DNA of 20,774 bases, taken from IMG/VR virus record IMGVR_UViG_3300042691_012853, positions 1 through 20,774 of that record. One strand, written 5' to 3'. How positions within the stretch are numbered: the stretch's first letter is position 1; each line of letters begins with the position of its first letter. The DNA is from a virus. Below the pieces are notes generated by a model, which ran no database searches, was not told the DNA's origin, and saw nothing but the letters and a program-made list of their open reading frames with translations. Positions 5,703 through 20,254 of the stretch are shown piece by piece. A program made the translations under genes and the position numbers.

Positions 5703-6803
5703 ATGGCTGTAATCACACCCATACGAATTAATGTAAAGTTTGACGACCGTGGTCAATACCTACGCTGGTATTACAACGGCTGGCACCATTACTTTTTCAA
5801 AAGTGCAGATGAGGAGTTTAATACGTCGGGTGAAAAGTATCGTACAAAGTTAACTTATAAGCTAACTTTAGGCGACGAGGCTTTGACAAAAAAACAACTA
5901 ACTGCCATTAGCGGGCTATTCAAAGGCAGGGTTGCTCAAATGTTAACTAGCGATGGTTGGAAAGCCATTACCATTGAGGACAAATCTATTGACTATGGAC
6001 GACACGATTTAACAGGGGCAGGGGTTGACTTAACTATTAACGTTTGGGCAAAGGTTGGGGTTTACACTCCGATGCTTCCTGTTACTATTACCCCGCCCGA
6101 ACCTGAACCAGTTTACACAGATATAAAATACGGCTCGCTATACAACTGGTTTTCTGCGACCGATGTTAGGGGTATTGCTAATGGTGATTTTGATGTACCG
6201 ACAAGGGACGAATGGGCTGCTTTAATTCAGCACATAAACCCGGCAATAGACCCGGTATTAGATTTTACTGGCTATACTAACATTGGAGGGTATTTAAAAG
6301 AAAATACTTCAACTTATTGGGACTCTCCAAATACAGGGGCAAGTAATATATATGGGTTTAATGGGCGTGGGGTTGGTATTAGGAATTTAACGGGTACGTT
6401 TAGTTTTGAAAAATCACAAACTTATATACACAGTAAAACGCTTTATTCAGCAACAAGGAATTATTACATAGTCTTAAATAAAGATAATTCGGAAATTACA
6501 ATAAGCTTAACAGTTAATATCAACGCATTAAAACAAGGAAACTCTATTCGTTTAGTTCGCCCCGCAACCGAATCCGACCCAATAGGCGACGGCTCGCCAT
6601 GCGCTCCTTACATTGGCAATGATGGCAAAGTTTATCGAACTGTAAGGATTGGCACACAGGTTTGGACGGCAGATAACTTAGCAGAAACAAAGTTTGCTAA
6701 CGGAGACACTATTCCAACCGTAACCGATAACGGCGAATGGGCAGCACTAACAACGGGCGCAAGGTGCGCTTATGATAACGACGAATCAAACGTACTAATT
6801 TAA
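5703..6803 (+). CDS. Tail adhesin with circularly permuted FISUMP domain
   Basis: This 366-residue protein has three parts. Residues 1-125 are a docking domain shared with the protein at 7179 (VITPIRIN, then LRWYYNGWHHYFF). A Pro-rich hinge follows (TITPPEPEP, about 128-136). The rest is a domain of the Fibrobacter succinogenes major paralogous type in reversed order. The usual C-terminal half comes first (YGSLYNWFSA, DVPTRDEWAAL, GGYLKE, YWDSPNTGASN..GF, SIRLVRP; 143-286). The usual N-terminal half comes last (DGKVYRTVRIGTQVWTADNL, then DNGEWAALTTGARCAYDND; 308-360). The predicted role is host-surface recognition at the tail tip. I recall FISUMP-like domains from surface proteins and phage tail fibres of Bacteroidota. 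No reverse transcriptase or template repeat is visible in the window. Confidence 0.75.
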   Translation: MAVITPIRINVKFDDRGQYLRWYYNGWHHYFFKSADEEFNTSGEKYRTKLTYKLTLGDEALTKKQLTAISGLFKGRVAQMLTSDGWKAITIEDKSIDYGRHDLTGAGVDLTINVWAKVGVYTPMLPVTITPPEPEPVYTDIKYGSLYNWFSATDVRGIANGDFDVPTRDEWAALIQHINPAIDPVLDFTGYTNIGGYLKENTSTYWDSPNTGASNIYGFNGRGVGIRNLTGTFSFEKSQTYIHSKTLYSATRNYYIVLNKDNSEITISLTVNINALKQGNSIRLVRPATESDPIGDGSPCAPYIGNDGKVYRTVRIGTQVWTADNLAETKFANGDTIPTVTDNGEWAALTTGARCAYDNDESNVLI

Positions 6804-9892: not shown

Positions 9893-12088
9893 ATGGCAGA
9901 CGAGAAGAAAATAGTATTAATCGACATACAAAGCAACCTTGAGGCTTATCGCAAAGAGGCAGTCGAAGCAGCGCAAAAGACAAAGGAACTTAAAGAAAAA
10001 ATTAAGGAACTAGAGAAAGCTAGTGGGGACAATAGCGAAGAAATTGAAGCGAACAAAGAACTATTAAGAGCCTCACAAAAACAGTATCGCGAATCCACGA
10101 AAGCAGTTGACGACCTAACCAAAGCCAATAATGCACAGGCTGGAAGTTACGAAGAACTACAAGCACAACTGAGGCTATCTGAAAAGGAACTAAAAAAGCA
10201 AAGCGGGCTACTTGTAAAGAATGCGGACGGCACTATTCAAATGACCGATGCTTATGTAGCAGCAAGTAAAGAGGTAGCGGATGCAAGGGAAGCTGTTAAT
10301 AACTTTAACTTAGGGATAGGAAAAGGGGAGACCAATGTAGGGCTTTACGAAAAGTCTATTGTTTCGGCCATGGCAAATGTCAAGATATTTGGCGTTGATG
10401 GTGGTAAGGCATTTGGGGCTTTAGGTCAAGGCATGGAGATAATGTCAAAGGTCGGGGCTATGTCGTTTAAATCTTTGGCTACTGCGTTTATTGCAACAGG
10501 TATAGGGGCTATTATTATAGCAATAGTAGCTGCAATAGCATTACTTACTAAAGCCTTTCAACGTTCGGAAACGAACATGAATAAACTTAAAAAAGTAATG
10601 GGTGGATTAAGTGGTGCTTTCTCGGGGTTAATGAAAGTACTAGAGCCTGTTGTAGAGTTTATTGCTGACTACGTTATATTTTACTTTGATGCTATGGGTA
10701 AGGCTGCCGAGAAAGCAATGGCTTTAGTTTCAAAAGCATTAAGGTTTGTAGGGCTTGACGAAACAGCCGACAAGTTGGATAAGTTTACACAGAAAATAAA
10801 GGATAGTGTTGCGGCTGGAATGGAACTGGCAGCGATGGAGGCCGAACTAGAAAAGCAGCAAAGGCTATCAAGAAAAACACAACTAGACTACCAAAAAGAA
10901 GCTGAGAAGTTAAGGCAGTTACGCGATGATGAAAGCCGTTCGATTGACGACCGTATGAAAAAGAATGAGCAACTTGGTGCGGTACTTCGTAAGCAACTTG
11001 ACGAAGAATTAAAGATAGCAAACTTAGGCGTTAAGTTAGCAGAGCGACGTATTGAACTTGAAGGAGAAAGTACAGAGAACCTAGATGCATTGGCGGAAGC
11101 GCAAACCGTTGTTTCAGATATTGAGGAAAGGGTATTGAGCCAACAATCCGAGCAACTTTCAAACCTCAATGGATTACGTAGAGAACAAAAAGCGTACTAT
11201 GAGGAACTATCTGCTAACATGCAGAAAGAAGAATCATTGCGACGTGCAAGGATTGACGCTGAACTAGCAGCTGAACAAACATTAGCAGAACTAAAAGAAG
11301 CAGCCAGACGAGAAGCAAGGCAAAAGCGTATTGATGCCGAAGCTGCCGAGAGAGCGATGGACTTGGAAACAATGGCTATCAATGCGGAGAATGAAATGCA
11401 GCTTAAAATACTTCGGGGGGCAACTGAACTCGAAATTGAAAGGCAGCAACTCGAAGCAAAGAAACAGCAAGAAATTGCAGCAACTGAGGATAACGAAGCA
11501 TCGGTTGCTTTAATACAAGAAAAGTATAGGCTGCTCGATATTCAAATGACCGAGATGAATCGGGATGCTAAACTTTCTCTTTATGCTGGAATGGCTGGGC
11601 AACTCGCAAGTATATTCGGGCAACAAACAGCATTAGGTAAAGCCGCCGCCGTAGCGCAAGCGACTATTGACACATACTTAGGAGCGCAAGCTGCTTATGC
11701 TTCAGGGGCAAAGTTTGGCCCTGTTACAGCTGCAATAAGTGCAGGTGTCGCCGTTGTGGCTGGTTTAGCAAATGTTAAAAAGATACTCGCAGTAGATACT
11801 AAAGGTAAAGGAACAAGTGCCCCAAGCGGTGGCGCTCCTGCCCGACCTTCAAACGTAGTTACTAGAATAAGCGGAGCAACATTAGCAGGGGCTAATACGC
11901 TAAACAATGTTAACCAAGGTAACGTAGGGGCAAATGTTGGAAGCGTATCGCAGCAAGCGCAAGCCGTAAATAACAATAACGATAAACTGGTCGAAGCAAT
12001 AAGCAACATAAAACCCGTTGTAACGGTTGAGGAAATACAAACAGTAACGGATAGAAAAAATATGGTCGAAGTAAAAGCTACTTACTAA
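9893..12088 (+). CDS. Tail tape-measure protein
   Basis: This 731-residue protein shows the usual tape-measure layout. The N-terminus is a long charged coiled coil (about 15-135). A hydrophobic membrane-like segment follows (TAFIATGIGAIIIAIVAAIAL, about 197-217), with a further hydrophobic/amphipathic stretch near 245-265. A second long coiled coil, rich in Glu, Lys and Arg, runs from about 305 to 545. The last part is a small-residue hydrophobic region (about 560-635, ending ANVKKILAV) and a Gly/Asn/Ala-rich tail. It sets tail length and is probably ejected into the cell envelope during infection. At 1.5 Angstrom per residue, a tail of about 110 nm is expected. Confidence 0.9.
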   Translation: MADEKKIVLIDIQSNLEAYRKEAVEAAQKTKELKEKIKELEKASGDNSEEIEANKELLRASQKQYRESTKAVDDLTKANNAQAGSYEELQAQLRLSEKELKKQSGLLVKNADGTIQMTDAYVAASKEVADAREAVNNFNLGIGKGETNVGLYEKSIVSAMANVKIFGVDGGKAFGALGQGMEIMSKVGAMSFKSLATAFIATGIGAIIIAIVAAIALLTKAFQRSETNMNKLKKVMGGLSGAFSGLMKVLEPVVEFIADYVIFYFDAMGKAAEKAMALVSKALRFVGLDETADKLDKFTQKIKDSVAAGMELAAMEAELEKQQRLSRKTQLDYQKEAEKLRQLRDDESRSIDDRMKKNEQLGAVLRKQLDEELKIANLGVKLAERRIELEGESTENLDALAEAQTVVSDIEERVLSQQSEQLSNLNGLRREQKAYYEELSANMQKEESLRRARIDAELAAEQTLAELKEAARREARQKRIDAEAAERAMDLETMAINAENEMQLKILRGATELEIERQQLEAKKQQEIAATEDNEASVALIQEKYRLLDIQMTEMNRDAKLSLYAGMAGQLASIFGQQTALGKAAAVAQATIDTYLGAQAAYASGAKFGPVTAAISAGVAVVAGLANVKKILAVDTKGKGTSAPSGGAPARPSNVVTRISGATLAGANTLNNVNQGNVGANVGSVSQQAQAVNNNNDKLVEAISNIKPVVTVEEIQTVTDRKNMVEVKATY

Positions 12089-12318
12089 TGACAGTATATA
12101 ATTGGGTTAATGATAATTTAAGCCTTGTTAAGCAACTCGAAAAGGCAGGGGTGATAAAGTATAAAGCCCCTTTATACTATGCTATTTATAGCCGCTATTC
12201 ATATTATGTAGCAAGGGGTAATTTAAAGACCCCAGCAATCGAACAGGCGTGTATGGATTTCAACACTTGCAGAATGACAGGGTTTAACGCAATAAAAGAA
12301 ATGGAGAAAGAACTATGA
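12088..12318 (+). CDS. Small hypothetical protein between tape measure and glycan genes
   Basis: The 76-residue product is not recognised. It is helical and Tyr-rich (YKAPLYYAIYSRYSYY, about 25-40), with two Cys at 54 and 60. Its ATG shares a base with the tape-measure stop (TAATG), and its own stop overlaps the next start as ATGA. It thus links the tail block to the glycan block translationally. A tail assembly role is possible from position, but nothing in the sequence proves it. Confidence 0.55.
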   Translation: MTVYNWVNDNLSLVKQLEKAGVIKYKAPLYYAIYSRYSYYVARGNLKTPAIEQACMDFNTCRMTGFNAIKEMEKEL

Positions 12319-14534
12319 AAATTGGAACAGTAACCCCTACACTTGGCAATAGGCCAGACTTTGTAAATTTTCTTAAATCACGATTAGAAAGACAAACCCG
12401 AAAAGCAGACTATACAGTTTTTGTTGACCACGAAAACAAAACAGGGATAGTTGATATTAAAGAAAGGTTTGTTAAAGGCATTAACGAGTGCTTCGAAAAT
12501 GGCTGTGATATGGTACTAATGATTGAGGATGACGATTACTATCCCTTAACCTACATTGAAGAGATGGAATCGGCATGGGAAATATTAGGACGGCCATATC
12601 TATTCGGGGTTAAAACAACTACATACTATCATATTGAGAGTAATCGGTTTGTTAACATGACGCCAAGCCATTGCTCAGCCTATTGTTCTGGATTAACAAA
12701 GGGAGCGATTTATGATGTAGGTGATAATAATTCACCTTACTACGATATAGCATTATGGAAAGCAAACAAAGGAGTACAGGTTGATATAAATCACCCTCCA
12801 TTGGGAATAAAGCATGGGGAAGGGGTTTGTGGTGGTGTTGGTCATAACCCAAATGCTCCGCTATATCAAAGGAATATCGACAAAGGAGCAATCCTGTTAA
12901 AGCAAAGAGTTGATGAAGAGGCGTTTCAATTTTACTCAAAGAAAGCAACCATAGACACCACCGCTATTATAGTTAACTTTGAAACACCTGAACTCACAAA
13001 GAGAGCAATCGATAGCCTAATAAACTATGAGAGGTTAAATATTATCGTAGTCGATAACTCAAGCGAAGCGAAAAGGTTTAAAGACGACAGGGTAACTGTA
13101 TTATTCCCGAATGAAAATCTATTTCACGGCAAAGGATTGGATTACGGTATTAGCAAAACAGATACCGAGTACATAATAGTAATGGATAGCGATGCCTATG
13201 TGAAGGATTTAAACATAATTCGTGAAGCAAAGCGACTACTTGAGGGTAATGTTTACGCCGTTGGGTGTTTTATTGAGCGGGTACCAAAAGAATCTGTACT
13301 ATACAGAACAGAGTTCGACTACCTAGAGCCATGGTTCGGGGTATTTAAGAAAAGTGTTTACAAAAAGTTTTCTCCATTTATGCATCACGGTGCACCATGG
13401 TACCAAGCAATGATTGATATTTATAAAGTAATGGAAGTTAAAGCCATTATGCCAGAAGCAGTTCACCACGACGGAGCGCAAACTATAAGAATAGTTGACA
13501 AGGAATGGCAAAAGAATTGGGTACATTACAAACCCAAGCGAAACCCAAGCGATCCTATGGAAAAATTCGAACTTAAAAGCGGGGTAGCAATACCTAGAGC
13601 CTTTGGCGATCCAACCCCGATAACAAAAGATAATATTACTGACGAAATTGCAATCGAACTTTTAGGTAAATGGCCTAAGTATAGGGAAATGTTTAACAAT
13701 ATTCCGAAGTGGTACGATAACGGCGAAGGTAAAGTTGTAGTTAAGAAAGATAAAGTAATAACTGTTTTCTGTTTTGTGTATAACGAACGCGACTACTTGC
13801 CACACGTTTATGAGTTTTGGAAACATCAAGGGATTGGCATGTATGTAATCGACAACATGAGCAATGATGGTACATGGGAATGGTTACAGGAAAACAATAT
13901 TCCCTCACATCGCTTCGATACTGAGGAAATGTTCCAACTCGCATGGCTCCAGAAAGAACTTGTAAGAACATTGCACGTTGTTAAACCCGATTGGATCATT
14001 TACGGTGCAGCGGATTTATACTATGCCTTTGATGAAAGCATACAGAATATAATTGAAAGAGCCGAAAATGAAGGGTACAACCAAATAAGAACTCATTGCT
14101 GGTTTACTTGCCCTACCGATACCGAACCTAGAAAGCATCCTTTGATTGAGAATTACCCATACTGCGAGCCGTTTTCAGATATTAACATGATTTCAAAGTA
14201 CGACCCAAATATTAGTTTTCTTGGCGATCATATCCAAATGCCAAACGCAAGGGCTTTATTTGTCGATGGAATGATTATAAACACAGGCAACTGCAAACCG
14301 ATTGAGATTCAAGAGGAGAAATTAGCACGTAGAAAAAAGGCATGGGAAAGTGGAATGCACAAAGGCTGGGGCGTTCACTACAACCAGCAAAAAGCAAAGA
14401 ATTGGTTATACACTAAAGAGGAGTTGTTCGATATTAGAACATCGCCTTATGCAAAATACTACACTAAAATACTTGAACTATGCAAACCATTGAAAAGCTA
14501 TTCGGGTTCGAAGCGGGTAACGACTTCGATTTAG
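12315..14534 (+). CDS. Protein with three glycosyltransferase-like domains
   Basis: This 739-residue protein appears to join three GT-A-like domains. Domain 1 (1-~205) opens MKIGTVTPTLGNRPDF and has an acidic metal/nucleotide-sugar motif EDDDYY at 71-76. Domain 2 (~212-425) is GT2-like, with TTAIIVNFETPELTKRAI, VVDNSS, LFHGKGLDYGI and a DSD motif at 291-293. A linker with KWPKYREMF follows (~425-478). Domain 3 (~480-739) starts VITVFCFVYNERDYL and VIDNMSNDGTWEWL, like GT2_4/GT92 proteins. Its metal motif is AAD (565-567) where DxD is usual, so it may be inactive or work without metal. It probably builds a short glycan by successive transfers. It is translationally coupled to the tail genes upstream and overlaps the next gene by 55 nt. 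Confidence 0.75.
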   Translation: MKIGTVTPTLGNRPDFVNFLKSRLERQTRKADYTVFVDHENKTGIVDIKERFVKGINECFENGCDMVLMIEDDDYYPLTYIEEMESAWEILGRPYLFGVKTTTYYHIESNRFVNMTPSHCSAYCSGLTKGAIYDVGDNNSPYYDIALWKANKGVQVDINHPPLGIKHGEGVCGGVGHNPNAPLYQRNIDKGAILLKQRVDEEAFQFYSKKATIDTTAIIVNFETPELTKRAIDSLINYERLNIIVVDNSSEAKRFKDDRVTVLFPNENLFHGKGLDYGISKTDTEYIIVMDSDAYVKDLNIIREAKRLLEGNVYAVGCFIERVPKESVLYRTEFDYLEPWFGVFKKSVYKKFSPFMHHGAPWYQAMIDIYKVMEVKAIMPEAVHHDGAQTIRIVDKEWQKNWVHYKPKRNPSDPMEKFELKSGVAIPRAFGDPTPITKDNITDEIAIELLGKWPKYREMFNNIPKWYDNGEGKVVVKKDKVITVFCFVYNERDYLPHVYEFWKHQGIGMYVIDNMSNDGTWEWLQENNIPSHRFDTEEMFQLAWLQKELVRTLHVVKPDWIIYGAADLYYAFDESIQNIIERAENEGYNQIRTHCWFTCPTDTEPRKHPLIENYPYCEPFSDINMISKYDPNISFLGDHIQMPNARALFVDGMIINTGNCKPIEIQEEKLARRKKAWESGMHKGWGVHYNQQKAKNWLYTKEELFDIRTSPYAKYYTKILELCKPLKSYSGSKRVTTSI

Positions 14535-15502
14535 ATTACTTTGAACTTTGCAAGCGTCAAAAGGTACTTACTTTTGACACTAAGTTTATGTCGGGAAACG
14601 TCGATTCGTTTCTAAAAACCCCGTTTAAAGAGATTACTAGAAAGGATAACCGATACTTAGCGGACACGCCAAAGTTTACAGGTACTTATGAGCAATATTT
14701 ACAACAGTATTTAAGAGCCTTTGAAAGTGTGCTAATGAAACTCGACCCTAAAGAGAAGTATTTATTTAGTTGCTCAAGCGGTTCGGATTCAAGGGTAATC
14801 GCTGGTACTATGATGAAACTACAAAAGCGAGGTTTTGACTTTTCAAACGTTCATTTCTTAACATGGGTTGGTAGTGAAGTGGAATCATTTAAAGCATTGA
14901 TGCGAATAGGCGGTTGGAAAAACTACAGCATAATGAGCGACGAAGGGGAAAACCCATACCAAATAGGTGTTTCCGATGTTCCGACATACGGCTGGCATTC
15001 TTACACAAATCAAATGAAATGGTGGAAAGACTTTGACCCTAAAGAGTATATTCTTTTAAGCGGTGCCATGGGTGAGATTATTCAATGGGATTTTGAAAGG
15101 TGGTACTACGTTGGCACTTGGTTTATGACACGCGGAGAAATAATACATAAGATGCAGAAAACATTTAAAGGTGTTTTATTCCCAATGTTATCCGAAGAAG
15201 TTTTAAACGTTTCTGCTAGCAGCCCGAAAGAATGGAAAGATATATACGATCCACGAAGCGGACGGGATAAAACTCGAACCGATTTAGTTGAGTTACTTGG
15301 GTTGGTTGATATTCCTTTTTCGAATTGTGCTTACAACTGGAACTTAACAGATAGGGTTAAAAATCAAATGATGGCCGATTATATTCAAAGTCAATTCTAC
15401 AAAGACTACCGACACCCGATTAGTCCGTTTGATGGTCAAATACATTTAAGTAATGACGCTAAGGCATGGGGCTTTGGTGTAACCATATACGATAAACTAT
15501 GA
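14480..15502 (+). CDS. PP-loop ATP pyrophosphatase, asparagine-synthase-like
   Basis: The 340-residue protein contains a PP-loop, LFSCSSGSDSRVIAGT, with SSGSDS at 99-104 (usual form SGGxDS). The helical lead-in resembles asparagine synthetase C-terminal domains. This fold activates a carboxylate or other acceptor as an adenylate. No N-terminal glutaminase domain with a catalytic Cys2 is present, so ammonia must come from a partner, or the chemistry differs. In surface-polysaccharide clusters, related proteins amidate uronic acids (WbpS type) or modify amino sugars. Here it sits among glycosyltransferases, so sugar tailoring is the best guess. The first 55 nt overlap the preceding gene. An ATG at 14591 would avoid the overlap but lose a protein-like N-terminus. 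Confidence 0.7.
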   Translation: MQTIEKLFGFEAGNDFDLDYFELCKRQKVLTFDTKFMSGNVDSFLKTPFKEITRKDNRYLADTPKFTGTYEQYLQQYLRAFESVLMKLDPKEKYLFSCSSGSDSRVIAGTMMKLQKRGFDFSNVHFLTWVGSEVESFKALMRIGGWKNYSIMSDEGENPYQIGVSDVPTYGWHSYTNQMKWWKDFDPKEYILLSGAMGEIIQWDFERWYYVGTWFMTRGEIIHKMQKTFKGVLFPMLSEEVLNVSASSPKEWKDIYDPRSGRDKTRTDLVELLGLVDIPFSNCAYNWNLTDRVKNQMMADYIQSQFYKDYRHPISPFDGQIHLSNDAKAWGFGVTIYDKL

Positions 15503-16230
15503 GAATAGAACAGGTAAGGTTTGCACCGCAAACTGTATTCTTTACGGAAAAGTTTTGTAAGCGTTGGGATATGGTTGGAATTACCGATAATACAAAACCA
15601 GCCTTATACGTCGGGGTTTATAATGAATCGGACATTAAACTAATCAATAGCCACGTAGGGTTTAAAGTGCTAATGGTGACACATATCTTACCGAGTTGCT
15701 TCGACAAACTCAACCCGGACAACCTTATTATAATGGAGGGAAACGGGATGCCGTGCGATGTTGATAAAAGCCGTTATAAAGTAAAGTCCGTTAACGTTCA
15801 AATGAAGGACTACTCCGATTTTCAACCTACTGTATTAGGTGATTCAGTTTATTGTTACGTTGGCGACACCGCACAAAAGGAATACTACAAGCATTCAATG
15901 GCCGAAAGGTTAAAGGCAAGAATAAAGCACCCTATTATATACGGATTTATTGATAAGTCAAAGCCAGAAACGTTAACCAATCAGCATTTAATTGATAATC
16001 TTTACTCAAAATGCTTTGTGAATTTACAACTTTCTACCCATGGCGGGCGTGTTGGAATTATAGAAATGGGTTACATGGGACGTAAAACAATACTTTACGG
16101 CACCGAAGAATCTATAATAAGCCAAATAGAAGCTGAAAGCAAGAAAATTGGGACACTTCAACCCTCAGTAATAACAGATAACTTCTTTGAAAATGACTGG
16201 CAAGACCTTAATTTCTGGAATGCGTTGTAG
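15499..16230 (+). CDS. GT-B-like glycosyltransferase
   Basis: The 243-residue protein has no DxD motif. Its C-terminal half has a GT-B/GT4-like donor-binding region: NLYSKCFVNLQLSTHGGRVG and IIEMGYMGRKTILYG (about 168-201), where the Glu of IIEMG corresponds to the donor-binding Glu of the GT4 family. Its length is short for a full GT-B enzyme (usually 350-400), so the N-terminal acceptor domain is reduced. The likely role is transfer of a sugar in the same pathway as its neighbours. The start overlaps the previous stop as ATGA. Confidence 0.6.
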   Translation: MRIEQVRFAPQTVFFTEKFCKRWDMVGITDNTKPALYVGVYNESDIKLINSHVGFKVLMVTHILPSCFDKLNPDNLIIMEGNGMPCDVDKSRYKVKSVNVQMKDYSDFQPTVLGDSVYCYVGDTAQKEYYKHSMAERLKARIKHPIIYGFIDKSKPETLTNQHLIDNLYSKCFVNLQLSTHGGRVGIIEMGYMGRKTILYGTEESIISQIEAESKKIGTLQPSVITDNFFENDWQDLNFWNAL

Positions 16231-16729
16231 CGACAACGGGCTTTTAGACCTTATTAACGATTTACCAACCGGCATTGATATGGTCGAGGTGGGTTGTTAT
16301 GCTGGTGAAAGCACCTTAATGTTTTTGCAATCGGGTAAAATAAAAACATTACATGCCATTGATCCGTGGTGTAGACAAATAGTTGAAGCCAACGACGATA
16401 TGGCTATGCAACTTAACTCGATGTACGACAGCATTAAGGCAGCCGAGCAATCTTTTCTTGAAAGGGTAAAGGGTTTTGATGTTCATGTTCAAAAGTGTAT
16501 ATTCACAGAGGCCGAACTTCCATTAGTTGATTTTGTTTATATCGATGCAAATCACACCTACGAAAGTGTTAAAGCAGATATTGCACTTGCTTTGAAAATA
16601 CTAAAGCCAAATGGAATTATAGCGGGGCACGATTACTATGACGAGTTTCAAGGCGTGATTAAAGCAGTTAATGAATTTCGAAAGCCAGACAAAGTATATA
16701 AAGATACTAGCTGGTTAATTCGCTTATGA
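16220..16729 (+). CDS. SAM-dependent methyltransferase (class I, Methyltransf_24-like)
   Basis: This is a 169-residue protein from ATG 16220. In-frame TTG 16187 and ATG 16193 would extend it, but with a longer overlap into the upstream gene. Motif I is VEVGCYAGEST (22-32), an acidic residue follows in HAIDPW (Asp48), and DFVYIDANHTYESV (104-117) and GHDYYDEF (136-143) match the Methyltransf_24 group. Known members O-methylate sugars and antibiotics. With glycosyltransferases on both sides, methylation of a glycan is the likely reaction. The domain looks complete. Confidence 0.75.
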   Translation: MRCSDNGLLDLINDLPTGIDMVEVGCYAGESTLMFLQSGKIKTLHAIDPWCRQIVEANDDMAMQLNSMYDSIKAAEQSFLERVKGFDVHVQKCIFTEAELPLVDFVYIDANHTYESVKADIALALKILKPNGIIAGHDYYDEFQGVIKAVNEFRKPDKVYKDTSWLIRL

Positions 16730-17229
16730 TAGTTGATGTATTAGGGCTTGGAGAAAGTTTATCGCTGCACGACGGGAATAATATAACCGTTGGGGTAAAC
16801 GATATCTTTAAAGTTAAGCCTGTTGATGTGCTGGTTTGTGTTGACTTCAAAACAGCATTTAATCCCGAGCGATTAAAATGGATTGAGGAGGCGAATGATT
16901 GCGCTTTCTTTTCTCAACTCGACGAATGGAAAAGCAAACAGAACTTTAATAAGATTGAACTACAACAATTTTACCCAAAGCAAGTTGCTAACCTTGACGT
17001 TCCACAACTTCCTAAATCAGTATTCTCTCCATACGTAGCAGTTGCTTTAGCCTATAAACTATTTACCCCTTCGCTTATTCGGGTGTTTGGAGTTGATATG
17101 ACAAACCACCACAACTTAACAAAGCAAGCCGAGCGAATACAAAAAGACTGGAAAGCGTTGGTTATTGCTCTTCGTTTGAAGGGGTGTGAGGTTGAAGTTT
17201 ATGGAGCCGGGCTATTGACTCGACAATAA
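16726..17229 (+). CDS. Maf/DUF115-like or sialyltransferase-like protein
   Basis: The 167-residue protein opens with VDVLGLGESLSLHDG and then ITVGVND followed by VDVLVCVD. This resembles the start of DUF115/motility-accessory-factor proteins and some GT42-type transferases (G-x-G-x-S-L, then a short strand ending in N and a later D). Maf proteins transfer nonulosonic acids to flagellin in other bacteria. It is short, and the C-terminal part (VFGVDMTNHHN, about 123-133) is unassigned. It closes the glycan block, sharing ATGA with the methyltransferase. Its last 68 nt overlap the convergent gene on the minus strand. Confidence 0.5.
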   Translation: MIVDVLGLGESLSLHDGNNITVGVNDIFKVKPVDVLVCVDFKTAFNPERLKWIEEANDCAFFSQLDEWKSKQNFNKIELQQFYPKQVANLDVPQLPKSVFSPYVAVALAYKLFTPSLIRVFGVDMTNHHNLTKQAERIQKDWKALVIALRLKGCEVEVYGAGLLTRQ

Positions 17230-17689
17230 CTAATAATTCATTTAATGCTAATATTTGCCCAGCGAAATTATGCCATGTTAAGCCTTCATTTAAAATAGCA
17301 GAATCTAATGTTTTCCATTTTAAACAGGCTGGCGTTTTTTCAATTATATTTTTTTGGCCAGTTTCGGCGTTATCAATCATTAATTTTATATACTTAATTA
17401 TTTCTTTAGTTTTGCCTTTGCCTTTGCATTGGCGTTTGTTCGCACCTTTTTCAATTAATGAATTATATTTACCAATTAGTTCAGATAAATCATTATTTAA
17501 TCTTTGGCTAAAACTCCTTTCCATTGAAAGTTTAGATTTTAATCCGCCTACTTGGTTTGTTAATTCTTCAATCTTTCTTGAAGCCTCAAGATATTTATCC
17601 CTATAATTCATTTCTTGATTTAATGATTGAAGGTCATTTAAGTATTCTTGAATTTGCTCAATAGTATAAGTAAAATTAGTTGCTGCCAT
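17162..17689 (-). CDS. Coiled-coil protein on opposite strand (moron candidate)
   Basis: The 175-residue protein starts at ATG 17689, in the context GCC-ATG-G, 16 nt after the upstream gene's stop. Start codons further upstream would overlap that gene. A coiled coil covers about residues 9-80, then a basic linker (KGANKRQCKGKGKTK, about 81-95), and a helical domain (about 96-165: IIKYIKLMIDNA, then ILNEGLTWHNFAG and ILALNELLVIVESI). It is not recognised. It runs against all structural genes and its 3' end overlaps the 16726 gene by 68 nt in convergent orientation. Its reading frame is open and its layout protein-like, which favours it being a real gene. Confidence 0.6.
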   Translation of the reverse strand: MAATNFTYTIEQIQEYLNDLQSLNQEMNYRDKYLEASRKIEELTNQVGGLKSKLSMERSFSQRLNNDLSELIGKYNSLIEKGANKRQCKGKGKTKEIIKYIKLMIDNAETGQKNIIEKTPACLKWKTLDSAILNEGLTWHNFAGQILALNELLVIVESIARLHKLQPHTPSNEEQ

Positions 17690-17705
17690 GGCTTTAGTTT
17701 TTAGT

Positions 17706-17936
17706 TTATTTATTAGCAATTGCGTTTTTAACAATTTCTTTTAACTCCTCGAACTTTACTTCCGTAAAATCCTTTTCATATAATACAGAAAATTCAGGCT
17801 CTTGCATTTCAGATGTTTGGAATACTAAAACATGGTAGTCGGGAAGTTTCTCCTGCAAATCTAGCGACATTTCGCCAGCCCATTCGCTATCAACATTACT
17901 CGAAACTTTAACTATAAAAATAGGTTTTGGATTCAT
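17706..17936 (-). CDS. Small hypothetical protein, first gene of antisense unit
   Basis: The 76-residue protein runs from ATG 17936. A TTG at 17960 in frame lies at the edge of a promoter -7 box, which disfavours it. It looks like a small alpha/beta protein: PIFIVKVSSN, a helix, DYHVLVFQTSE, a strand (FSVLYEKD) and a C-terminal helix (VKFEELKEIVKNAI). I recall similar small proteins in Bacteroidota phages without known function. It precedes the coiled-coil gene on the minus strand and would share one transcript with it. Confidence 0.6.
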   Translation of the reverse strand: MNPKPIFIVKVSSNVDSEWAGEMSLDLQEKLPDYHVLVFQTSEMQEPEFSVLYEKDFTEVKFEELKEIVKNAIANK

Positions 17937-17957
17937 GTTGGTTAAGTTTAGTTTATG

Positions 17958-17991
17958 CAAATATACAACAGAAAACCAATATTAGTACAAA
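17958..17991 (-). promoter_or_regulatory. Promoter for minus-strand pair
   Basis: On the minus strand, TATATTTG (17965 to 17958) is a -7 box and TTTG (17991 to 17988) a -33 box, with a 22-nt spacer, slightly longer than usual. The -7 box lies 21 nt before the ATG at 17936. The unit thus has its own promoter, independent of the structural operon. Confidence 0.6.
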
Positions 17992-18050: not shown

Positions 18051-19163
18051 ATGCGTATGACTGCAACCTTTCTACTTTATGGCGACATAGTTCCATTCGA
18101 GGAAAAGCAAACAAACGAACTATTCGGGGTAAATATCGGAGTAAGCTCAAAAGATATATCCGATTTTATCGAAGCCAACAAAGAAGCCGAAGAATATATT
18201 ATAAGAATTAACTCACGTGGAGGCAGCGTTACCGAGGGTTTTTTAATTCACGACCTTTTAGTTAACAGCGGTAAGAAAGTTACAACCATTGGCGAGGGTA
18301 AAATATTCTCTATTGCTACGGTTGTGTTTTTAGCAGGGAATAAAAGAGTAATGCTTGAAAACTCCGACGGCTTAATTCACATGCCGTTTATTCCACCTTA
18401 CACCCTTGCCGATTCCTACGATTCTAAAGAGCTTGGAGCCCTAACCGAAAGCCTAAAGCAAGAAGAAGAAAAGATATTGCAGTTCTACGTGCAAAAAACA
18501 GGACACGACAAAGAAGAACTAAGAGCATTTATGGAAAAAGAAACCATGCTTGCAGCCGCCGACATGCTTAAACTTGGATTCGCAACCGAAATAAAAGAAC
18601 AACTCAAAGCAGTTGCTTTTATAAATAATTCACTAACAAACAAAAAAACAAATGAAATGGCAGAGAAAACTGTAATGGAGAAAATTCTCGACCGTGCCGA
18701 CGCTATCCTTGCTAAGTTTAGCAGAATTGATGCGAAGAACATGGAACAGACCGACGTAAACGGTAATAAGTTTACGGTCGAACGTGAGGAGGGTGATATT
18801 CAGGTGGGGGACAAAGCAAACCCCGACGGCGAATATACACTCGAAAACGGTACTAAGGTAGTTGTACTTGAAGGGGTAATCACCGAAATGGTACCAGCAG
18901 CAGAAGAAGGCGACGGCGAAATGGAAGCACTAAAAGCCGAAAACGCTGAACTTAAAGAAAAGTTAGCAGCAATGGAAGCGAAAGTTTCTAACGTGGCAAA
19001 CTTGGAAACCGAAATGAAAGGTTTGATTACTGACCTTCGTGCGCAAAAATCGGTAGTTACTATTGAAGGTCGTCAGCAAAACTTCAAGAAAGTTGAGCAG
19101 GTTAAGAACCAAGTCGACAAAGACGACATTCGCGAAAGAATGAAAAAACTAAACAACAAATAA
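18051..19163 (+). CDS. ClpP-like head maturation protease with scaffold-like C-terminus
   Basis: This 370-residue protein has residues 1-185 as a ClpP-type serine protease. The oxyanion-region motif is INSRGGSV (53-60), the nucleophile Ser87 lies in GKIFSIATVVFLAG and His110 in LIHMPF. The third catalytic position, in MEKETMLAAADMLKLG, appears to be Glu164 rather than Asp. Residues ~203-370 have no protease features. They hold a short beta region and a coiled coil (GEMEALKAENAELKEKLAAM), like a scaffolding protein. An in-frame ATG at 18657 (Met203) could give a separate scaffold, as in lambda C/Nu3. It would cleave scaffold and/or capsid during prohead maturation, and the capsid gene follows. 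A second ATG at 18057 is an alternative start. Confidence 0.85.
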   Translation: MRMTATFLLYGDIVPFEEKQTNELFGVNIGVSSKDISDFIEANKEAEEYIIRINSRGGSVTEGFLIHDLLVNSGKKVTTIGEGKIFSIATVVFLAGNKRVMLENSDGLIHMPFIPPYTLADSYDSKELGALTESLKQEEEKILQFYVQKTGHDKEELRAFMEKETMLAAADMLKLGFATEIKEQLKAVAFINNSLTNKKTNEMAEKTVMEKILDRADAILAKFSRIDAKNMEQTDVNGNKFTVEREEGDIQVGDKANPDGEYTLENGTKVVVLEGVITEMVPAAEEGDGEMEALKAENAELKEKLAAMEAKVSNVANLETEMKGLITDLRAQKSVVTIEGRQQNFKKVEQVKNQVDKDDIRERMKKLNNK

Positions 19164-19180: not shown

Positions 19181-20254
19181 ATGGCATCGTTAATCAATCA
19201 CAGCAACTACACATTTACAGCCGACGAGATAAGGGCGTATAACGAAATCCTACTCAAAGCTGTAACCGAAATCCCTCAGCTTACCGACTTTCATAGTTTT
19301 GAGCAAGGGATTAAGAACGACAAGCAAATTGGGCTTGCCGATGGTTCGTTTGGGTTAATAGGTAAAGCAGTTCAGACTTGCGGTACTCTTACCCCAGATA
19401 CAAAACTACTCGCTACCCAGCAAAAGAAATGGGAGCCTAAACGTTTACAGGTTTTACTTCGCGAATGCTGGGCAGACCTTGACGCTACTATGGGTCGTTT
19501 GTCTAGGCAAACTGGCAACAATGTTGCTGACCTAACATCTACGGATTACATGACCTTCATCCTTTCGATTCTTGAGAAAGATTTAGGCCGCATGGTATTC
19601 CGTAAGGCATGGTTTGATGACACCGCAGCCGCTTTAGTTACTGACAGCCCAGCAGGTGTATTAACCGCCGGAACTGATAAAACCTACTTTAACCTAATTA
19701 ACGGATTTTTCCAACAATTAGGTGTAATTATCGCAGCAGATGCAACTCGTAAAACTACCATTGCAGCCAACGCACAGGCTACATTTGCTCTTCAGGATTC
19801 AGCCCTAACAAACCAACTTGCTTATGAAGCATTATTGGCAGTAATTGACGGTGCAAAACCTGCACTTCGTGCTGCATCTGACCAAGTTATTTTATGTACT
19901 GGTTCAATTGGCCGCAAAGCAATGCGTTACTTACAGGACAAAGGTTTAGCCTTTACCCTTGACACCGCGTTGAATGGCTTACAAATGATCAATGTCGACG
20001 GTCGCACCATCTACGTAATTGAGTGGTGGGATGAACTTATACGCGCTTATCAAAGCAACGGTACTAAGTACAACAGCCCTCACCGTATTGTTTACACAAC
20101 CAAGAGTAATCTAGTTGTTGGTATGGAAGCAAACGGCTTGTTTGAATCGTTCGACGTTTATCACGATAAAGTAACCAAATACACCTACATTGAGGCTGTT
20201 GACGCAATGGACGCCAAGATTCTCGACGACACAATGGTTCAGTACGGTGTTTAA
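19181..20254 (+). CDS. Major capsid protein
   Basis: The 357-residue protein follows a head protease/scaffold and has the size and alpha/beta mix of a HK97-fold capsid protein. It has a helical N-arm (FTADEIRAYNEILLKAV), then charged and strand-rich stretches, a long helix (STDYMTFILSILEKDLGRMVF, split by a short loop) and a C-terminal region (SPHRIVYTTKSNLVVGMEANG) resembling the end of the P-domain. Its start is chosen by the strong Shine-Dalgarno at 19168. It forms the icosahedral shell. The identification rests on position, size and pattern rather than a single motif. Confidence 0.75.
   Translation: MASLINHSNYTFTADEIRAYNEILLKAVTEIPQLTDFHSFEQGIKNDKQIGLADGSFGLIGKAVQTCGTLTPDTKLLATQQKKWEPKRLQVLLRECWADLDATMGRLSRQTGNNVADLTSTDYMTFILSILEKDLGRMVFRKAWFDDTAAALVTDSPAGVLTAGTDKTYFNLINGFFQQLGVIIAADATRKTTIAANAQATFALQDSALTNQLAYEALLAVIDGAKPALRAASDQVILCTGSIGRKAMRYLQDKGLAFTLDTALNGLQMINVDGRTIYVIEWWDELIRAYQSNGTKYNSPHRIVYTTKSNLVVGMEANGLFESFDVYHDKVTKYTYIEAVDAMDAKILDDTMVQYGV

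Follow-up and report, generated by a model that had tools for sequence, protein, structure and literature searches.

The 20,774-nucleotide stretch analysed here (the window) is the entire IMG/VR record IMGVR_UViG_3300042691_012853 of an uncultured tailed phage and represents an incomplete genome. Five open reading frames (ORFs), all in one direction, form a cassette at 12315-17229, and an ORF check finds each of them where an earlier sequence-only reading had placed a glycan assembly and tailoring cassette (Table 1). On the left the slot is flanked by the tape measure gene and a 76-aa gene (g76), and on the right by the genes for a ClpP-like protease and the major capsid protein (MCP). The coupling to the tape measure gene proposed in that reading is confirmed, via the intervening g76: a TAATG overlap joins the tape measure gene to g76, and an ATGA overlap joins g76 to the gene of a 739-aa protein. 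Because of these overlaps, it is plausible that expression of the cassette is tied to that of the tail genes; a sigma-70 and terminator scan of the cassette region gave no useful signal against shuffled sequences. We take all five to be functional genes. Chance ORFs are ruled out by the 52-87% amino acid identity to the sister phage L002 (the 340-aa gene excepted, which is absent there) and by purifying selection where measurable (window vs L002; dN/dS = 0.04 for the 739-aa protein, with dS near saturation, and 0.10 for the 167-aa protein g167).

The 739-aa protein seems to combine three glycosyltransferase (GT) domains, d1, d2 and d3, in agreement with the sequence-only reading. Pfam recognises d2 (residues 217-341) and d3 (residues 490-575) as GT2-type domains, while d1 gave no match in a Pfam search and was recognised by its predicted fold. 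The AlphaFold2 (AF2) model of d1 (pLDDT 71.6) matches GT-A/GT2 proteins in Foldseek (SpsA, E = 1.7e-5; EXTL2, GtrB and TarP), and the aligned d1 family shares the pattern TPTGxR...QTY...VDD...IEDDDYY; d1 is therefore described as a putative glycosyltransferase with a GT-A fold. In addition to a Pfam profile or a predicted fold of the GT2/GT-A type, all three domains possess an acidic metal-binding motif in the alignments (Table 1; a conserved D in d3). They are encoded by separate genes in most relatives and make up a single polypeptide in the window and L002. For instance, d3 is a stand-alone gene in the loci L018, L031, L064 and L005, and the fused d2 is shorter than its free-standing counterparts. 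In the fusion, d1 and d2 are linked to d3 by a module of ~50 residues homologous to the middle of p156. This protein is encoded just before the portal, whether or not the phage has a cassette, and because of this homology to a portal neighbour the module may dock the fusion to the forming head.

The functional assignments of the remaining cassette proteins differ in how far they can be followed. The methyltransferase is recovered as a Methyltransf_24 protein, with homologs found in L002 and L031. The 340-aa protein (PP340), previously called a PP-loop amidotransferase-like enzyme, does carry the SSGSDSR motif, but it has no Pfam match and does not reach the asparagine-synthase profile PF00733; hhalign covers the SSGSDSR loop only, at a non-significant E of 0.067. 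Its gene is missing from L002 and all other relatives and has no relatives in IMG/VR, indicating an accessory gene, and the suggestion of a perhaps amidated glycan goes back to the single motif of this orphan protein. The 243-aa protein (g243) resembles a GT-B transferase, as claimed earlier, by motif but not by Pfam, where the search gave no match; its L064 homolog has the GT4-like motif HDGLPNTVLEMGMMGR. Likewise, the Maf/DUF115 kinship proposed for g167 stands at the level of fold and lacks sequence-profile support. The confident AF2 model (pLDDT 91.8) matches viral MptE-like/DUF115 proteins in the viral fold library BFVD (Foldseek; E ~1e-4, TM 0.66-0.71), and g167 is thus predicted to share the DUF115/MptE-like fold, although there is no match to Pfam PF01973 and the profile-profile alignment spans only 25 columns (E = 0.013). 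Its counterparts in L005 and L003 show a sub-threshold Pfam MptE-like signal. An assignment of g167 as thiamin pyrophosphokinase was rejected in favour of the DUF115 fold kinship, the best PDB matches being weak (E = 0.01, TM 0.5).

Table 1. Features of the glycan cassette and its borders in the window
Feature	Position	Strand	Basis
Tape measure protein, left slot border	9893..12088	+	PHROG tape-measure/virion families, 1e-11 to 3e-14; 79% in L002
g76, conserved 76-aa gene at the tape measure/cassette junction	12088..12318	+	89% in L002; same-place homologs in the cassette-bearing clade
739-aa protein, three predicted GT-A domains	12315-14534	+	Pfam for d2 and d3; fold for d1
Putative GT domain d1, core trio member 1, DDD motif	12315..12956	+	Alignment with 14 free-standing homologs; AF2/Foldseek
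GT2 domain d2, core trio member 2, DSD motif	12957..13544	+	Pfam Glycos_transf_2, 5.4e-22; alignment
~50-aa module common to the p156 protein	13563..13724	+	phmmer 1e-8 to 1e-5 to p156 of many relatives; alignment; phrog_37138, 2.4e-4
GT domain d3, Glyco_tranf_2_4	13758..14534	+	Pfam 4.5e-7
PP340, 340 aa, PP-loop motif SSGSDSR ... LSGAMGE, possibly asparagine-synthase-like	14480..15502	+	Motif
g243, 243 aa, GT-B-like, variable cassette part	15499..16230	+	Homologs only in L002, L031, L064
S-adenosylmethionine methyltransferase Methyltransf_24, 180 aa, TTG start uncertain	16187..16729	+	Pfam 1.1e-16
g167, 167 aa, predicted DUF115/MptE-like fold, core trio member 3	16726..17229	+	AF2 and Foldseek BFVD; 28/30 slots
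ClpP-like head protease/scaffold, right slot border	18051..19163	+	Homologs adjoin MCP in all relatives
MCP, candidate acceptor	19181..20254	+	Homolog of BS-TP3 gp3; 51% to L002 MCP

Around 45 further loci of uncultured relatives were obtained from searches with g167 and MCP alignments. The order of the five genes, which the sequence-only reading had proposed to look for in other phages, recurs in L002 (79% identity in the 739-aa homolog), where the gene order of the window is kept except for the missing 340-aa gene. The L002 genome is probably complete because the two ends of its 42-kb record have a direct repeat in common (98 bp exact and ~30 more bases nearly identical). Throughout the cassette-bearing clade, whose MCPs are 40-52% identical to that of the window, the genes are arranged as tape measure - 76-aa gene - variable genes - d1 - d2 - g167 - ClpP - MCP - p199 - p156 - portal. 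Here 28 of the 30 loci that extend 700 bp or more upstream of ClpP contain g167, and all 21 that extend at least 1.8 kb contain d1 (counts that include near-duplicate loci and four loci found through g167 alone; restricted to MCP-found loci, g167 24/26 and d1 20/20). The core is found in none of 10 loci of the sister clade in the tree (MCP 27-32% identical, including Bacteroides phage BS-TP3, in which the counterpart of the ClpP-like protein is annotated ClpP). These cassette-free phages also have an ORF of similar size (~77 aa) at the position of g76, and in several of them tape measure, this ORF and ClpP are directly consecutive. The window cassette is one allele of a fixed slot whose 3' end (d1, d2 and g167) is constant and whose 5' part is exchanged. 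In L023 (3151-3672) a g167 homolog occupies the same slot in the orientation opposite to ClpP and MCP.

The interval between g76 and d1 contains a wide range of enzymes across the relatives. Its transferases include GT2, GT8-like, GT11, GT25-like, GT92, GT4-like and TOD1/MUCI70-type proteins, and they are accompanied by NAD-epimerases, DegT aminotransferase, TupA ATP-grasp, C-methyltransferase, Methyltransf_24 and radical SAM/B12 proteins. The turnover is seen even between phages with similar capsids: the clear homologs of L006 and L046 (MCP 86% identical) are limited to the 76-aa gene, d1, d2 and g167, many cassette genes differ between L031 and L064 (MCP 90%), and one whole GT gene differs between L047 and L048 (MCP 100%). 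The last two pairs contradict a strict co-variation of MCP and cassette, which the comparison of the window with L002 had suggested. In that comparison most proteins are 79-95% identical, and the divergent ones are the MCP (51%), g243 (52%), a FISUMP-domain protein (54%) and the methyltransferase (68%). The 739-aa gene, g243, the methyltransferase and the MCP also exceed most neighbours in synonymous differences, which suggests allele exchange. With only 51% for the MCP beside 91% for ClpP, p199 and portal, the capsid gene of the window seems to have been exchanged. The FISUMP-type protein (window 5703-6803, L002 3549-4457) is 82% identical over its first ~125 residues and has its C-terminal part replaced in L002; it is a candidate diversified tail-tip or receptor-binding protein.

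Some further features were noticed. In the window (17162-17960) the gap between g167 and ClpP contains a pair of ORFs on the minus strand (190 and 84 aa), whereas it measures only ~55 bp in L002 and carries other ORFs elsewhere (302 aa in L029, 130 aa in L047); since its ORFs differ between relatives, it is a second insertion site. A GIY-YIG/NUMOD3 homing-endonuclease-like gene lies within the glycan cassette of L046 (5335-5889) and is a possible agent of cassette exchange; as it is present in L046 only, an explanation of the locus by homing endonucleases or as a pure moron was discarded. The L002 phage seems to have a split C5 cytosine methylase, encoded in two overlapping frames (L196, 6642-7758). 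The only bacterial contig that might have pointed to a host, 3.8 kb long in a metagenome-assembled genome labelled Proteobacteria, was too short to trust.

Related modules occur in other phage lineages. IMG/VR contains at least 222 relatives of the d1 family, and in 30 of 48 representative loci d1 has a DUF115-like gene no more than 4 kb away. In a PHROG scan the neighbours of such loci gave matches to head-tail-adaptor, major-head, minor-head, terminase and tape-measure families. For instance, L005, L011 and L003, with another MCP type, encode d1, DUF115-like and sulfotransferase-like proteins between the MCP and the head-tail connectors, with d3 additionally in L005 and L003, and methyltransferase and epimerase in L005 and L011; the full gene set of such modules is not present in every locus. 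Tandem proteins of ~105-145 aa adjoin the MCP and the glycan module in L005 (5267-6039, 6753-7073) and L011 (4742-5470). They share a motif, roughly GRxxxxxxNxxIKPGxxFxA...I..xFRDTV, and are possible decoration or acceptor proteins.

We consider it probable (roughly 0.7) that the cassette glycosylates the phage's own virion proteins, with a constant core and variable outer sugars. This reading, already proposed from the sequence, is best supported by the virion-operon position in several unrelated lineages, by the presence of only soluble enzymes, by the lack of lipid-carrier, flippase, polymerase and base-hypermodification enzymes, and by enzyme classes common to mycobacteriophage Che8. A transmembrane helix is predicted in none of 146 cassette sequences, and the annotated cassette proteins include no carrier-lipid transferase, flippase, polymerase or ligase. 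For these reasons the transferases would most likely act in the host cytoplasm, using nucleotide sugars during virion assembly, and the oligosaccharide would be built directly on one or more virion proteins. The conserved, probably protein-proximal steps would fall to the constant trio (d1, d2 and g167), and the addition and capping of the outer sugars to the exchangeable 5' genes (here d3, g243, the methyltransferase and perhaps PP340).

Among tailed phages, a few mycobacteriophages are documented to have glycosylated virions. In Che8, capsid and tail tube are the structures reported to be glycosylated (as described in PMC12363180 and PMC11256854); for Che8, Corndog and Myrna the work is that of Freeman et al. 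2023, taken here from these two articles. The GT genes of Che8 (GT2+Methyltransf_24, GT2 and GT25) encode soluble caudoviral enzymes with the phage's own capsid and tail tube as proposed target, and the cassette phages similarly encode several soluble GT2/GT25-type transferases and a methyltransferase. However, the three Che8 genes are situated at the right genome end, outside the virion operon, so that the mycobacteriophage precedent invoked earlier for virion-operon transferases covers glycosylation and not gene position. Moreover, no DUF115-like protein was seen in Che8 and no swapping of outer-sugar genes at a fixed site has been described for it.

The best working analogy is the MCP glycan of chloroviruses. 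In PBCV-1, soluble viral GTs with three domains (A111/114R, A064R) are known, and the MCP glycan has a conserved core and a virus-specific periphery (PMC7826918, PMC9614988). The likeness extends to multi-domain soluble GTs, methyltransferases and the division into core and outer part, but this is a eukaryotic virus with unrelated genes and capsid, and the comparison is by analogy, not homology. Bacterial O-antigen and capsule loci also combine a fixed site and constant border genes with exchangeable sugar genes, whereas the cassette has no Wzx/Wzy, initiating transferase, ligase or membrane protein and sits in a phage virion operon. Maf proteins transfer sugar to flagellin. The predicted fold of g167 resembles viral members of this MptE-like/DUF115 group, but g167 consists of just one small domain and gives no match to the Pfam profile.

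Several other targets were considered. The cassette might modify a host surface glycan (lipopolysaccharide or capsule) late in infection and thereby prevent superinfection or the re-adsorption of progeny; serotype conversion is a well-known phage trait, and the variable genes are of O-antigen/capsule type. Known serotype-converting systems, however, use membrane GtrA/GtrC or acetyltransferases, and with no membrane protein in any cassette, no carrier, flippase or polymerase, a locus in the virion operon with related modules in unrelated virion operons, and a probably complete L002 genome without integrase and with no lysogenic conversion evident, we find this improbable. A narrower version of virion glycosylation, in which only a tail-tip or fibre protein is modified to tune adsorption, and not the capsid or tail tube, gains something from the divergence of the FISUMP-domain protein alongside the MCP, g243 and the methyltransferase; yet the modules adjoin MCP and head-tail connectors in unrelated lineages and head genes here, and nothing ties them to a tail-tip gene, making it similarly unlikely. 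Glycosylation of hypermodified DNA bases against restriction is the most doubtful option, even though sets of phage GTs have been reported to hypermodify DNA with glycans (Pyle 2024, cited in PMC12619734) and L002 encodes N6/N4 and C5 DNA methylases, because 10 sister-phage records yielded no Tet/JBP dioxygenase and 9 viral records (including L002) no thymidylate-synthase/hydroxymethylase family, the position in the virion operon is late, and restriction protection needs no long, constantly exchanged sets of outer-sugar genes. A virion protein is then the remaining acceptor, as it fits the late virion-operon position conserved across lineages.

Some observations weigh against glycosylation of the virion. 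A position in the virion operon would suit any late product, and the cassette-bearing phages are known from sequences alone, with no cultured member, so that both glycan and acceptor are deduced. The Che8 GTs show no detectable homology to d1, d2 and g167 (gp108-110: hidden Markov model E of at least 0.003 and ~4 bits or less; hhalign probability ~5% or less). Besides, PP340 and g243 are assigned at motif level, and g167 could bind a pterin or nucleotide instead of transferring sugar.

The observation made in the sequence-only reading was right and its interpretation is mostly plausible. Beyond it, our comparisons point to a hypervariable slot with a constant trio, to its recurrence in unrelated phages, and to the 739-aa protein as a fusion of genes that are separate elsewhere. 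More generally, we see about even odds that several unrelated head lineages carry a 'virion serotype locus' in the virion operon, in which a constant core (d1, DUF115-like and often d2/d3) would start a protein-linked glycan and a slot of outer-sugar genes would be swapped between phages with near-identical capsids, giving particles O-antigen-like surface types. Immune evasion, offered earlier as a benefit, does not hold up well, as antibodies are an unlikely driver for phages from metagenome contigs without sign of an animal host; such surface types would presumably be under selection from environmental binding, grazing or contacts with host surfaces.

A tblastn survey with the 739-aa, 167-aa and 340-aa proteins and two d1 homologs gave no match in 50,697 deposited phage records, and hence no cultured relative with the cassette; as none of the three d1 queries has a detectable relative there, isolate collections have missed the d1 cassette. 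If virion glycosylation by these cassettes is true, it would be widespread in uncultured phages, with its own recurring core enzymes, and would be diversified by cassette exchange like bacterial O-antigens. Phage surface sugar types would then be a testable trait, and many new glycosyltransferases acting on virion proteins would be at hand.

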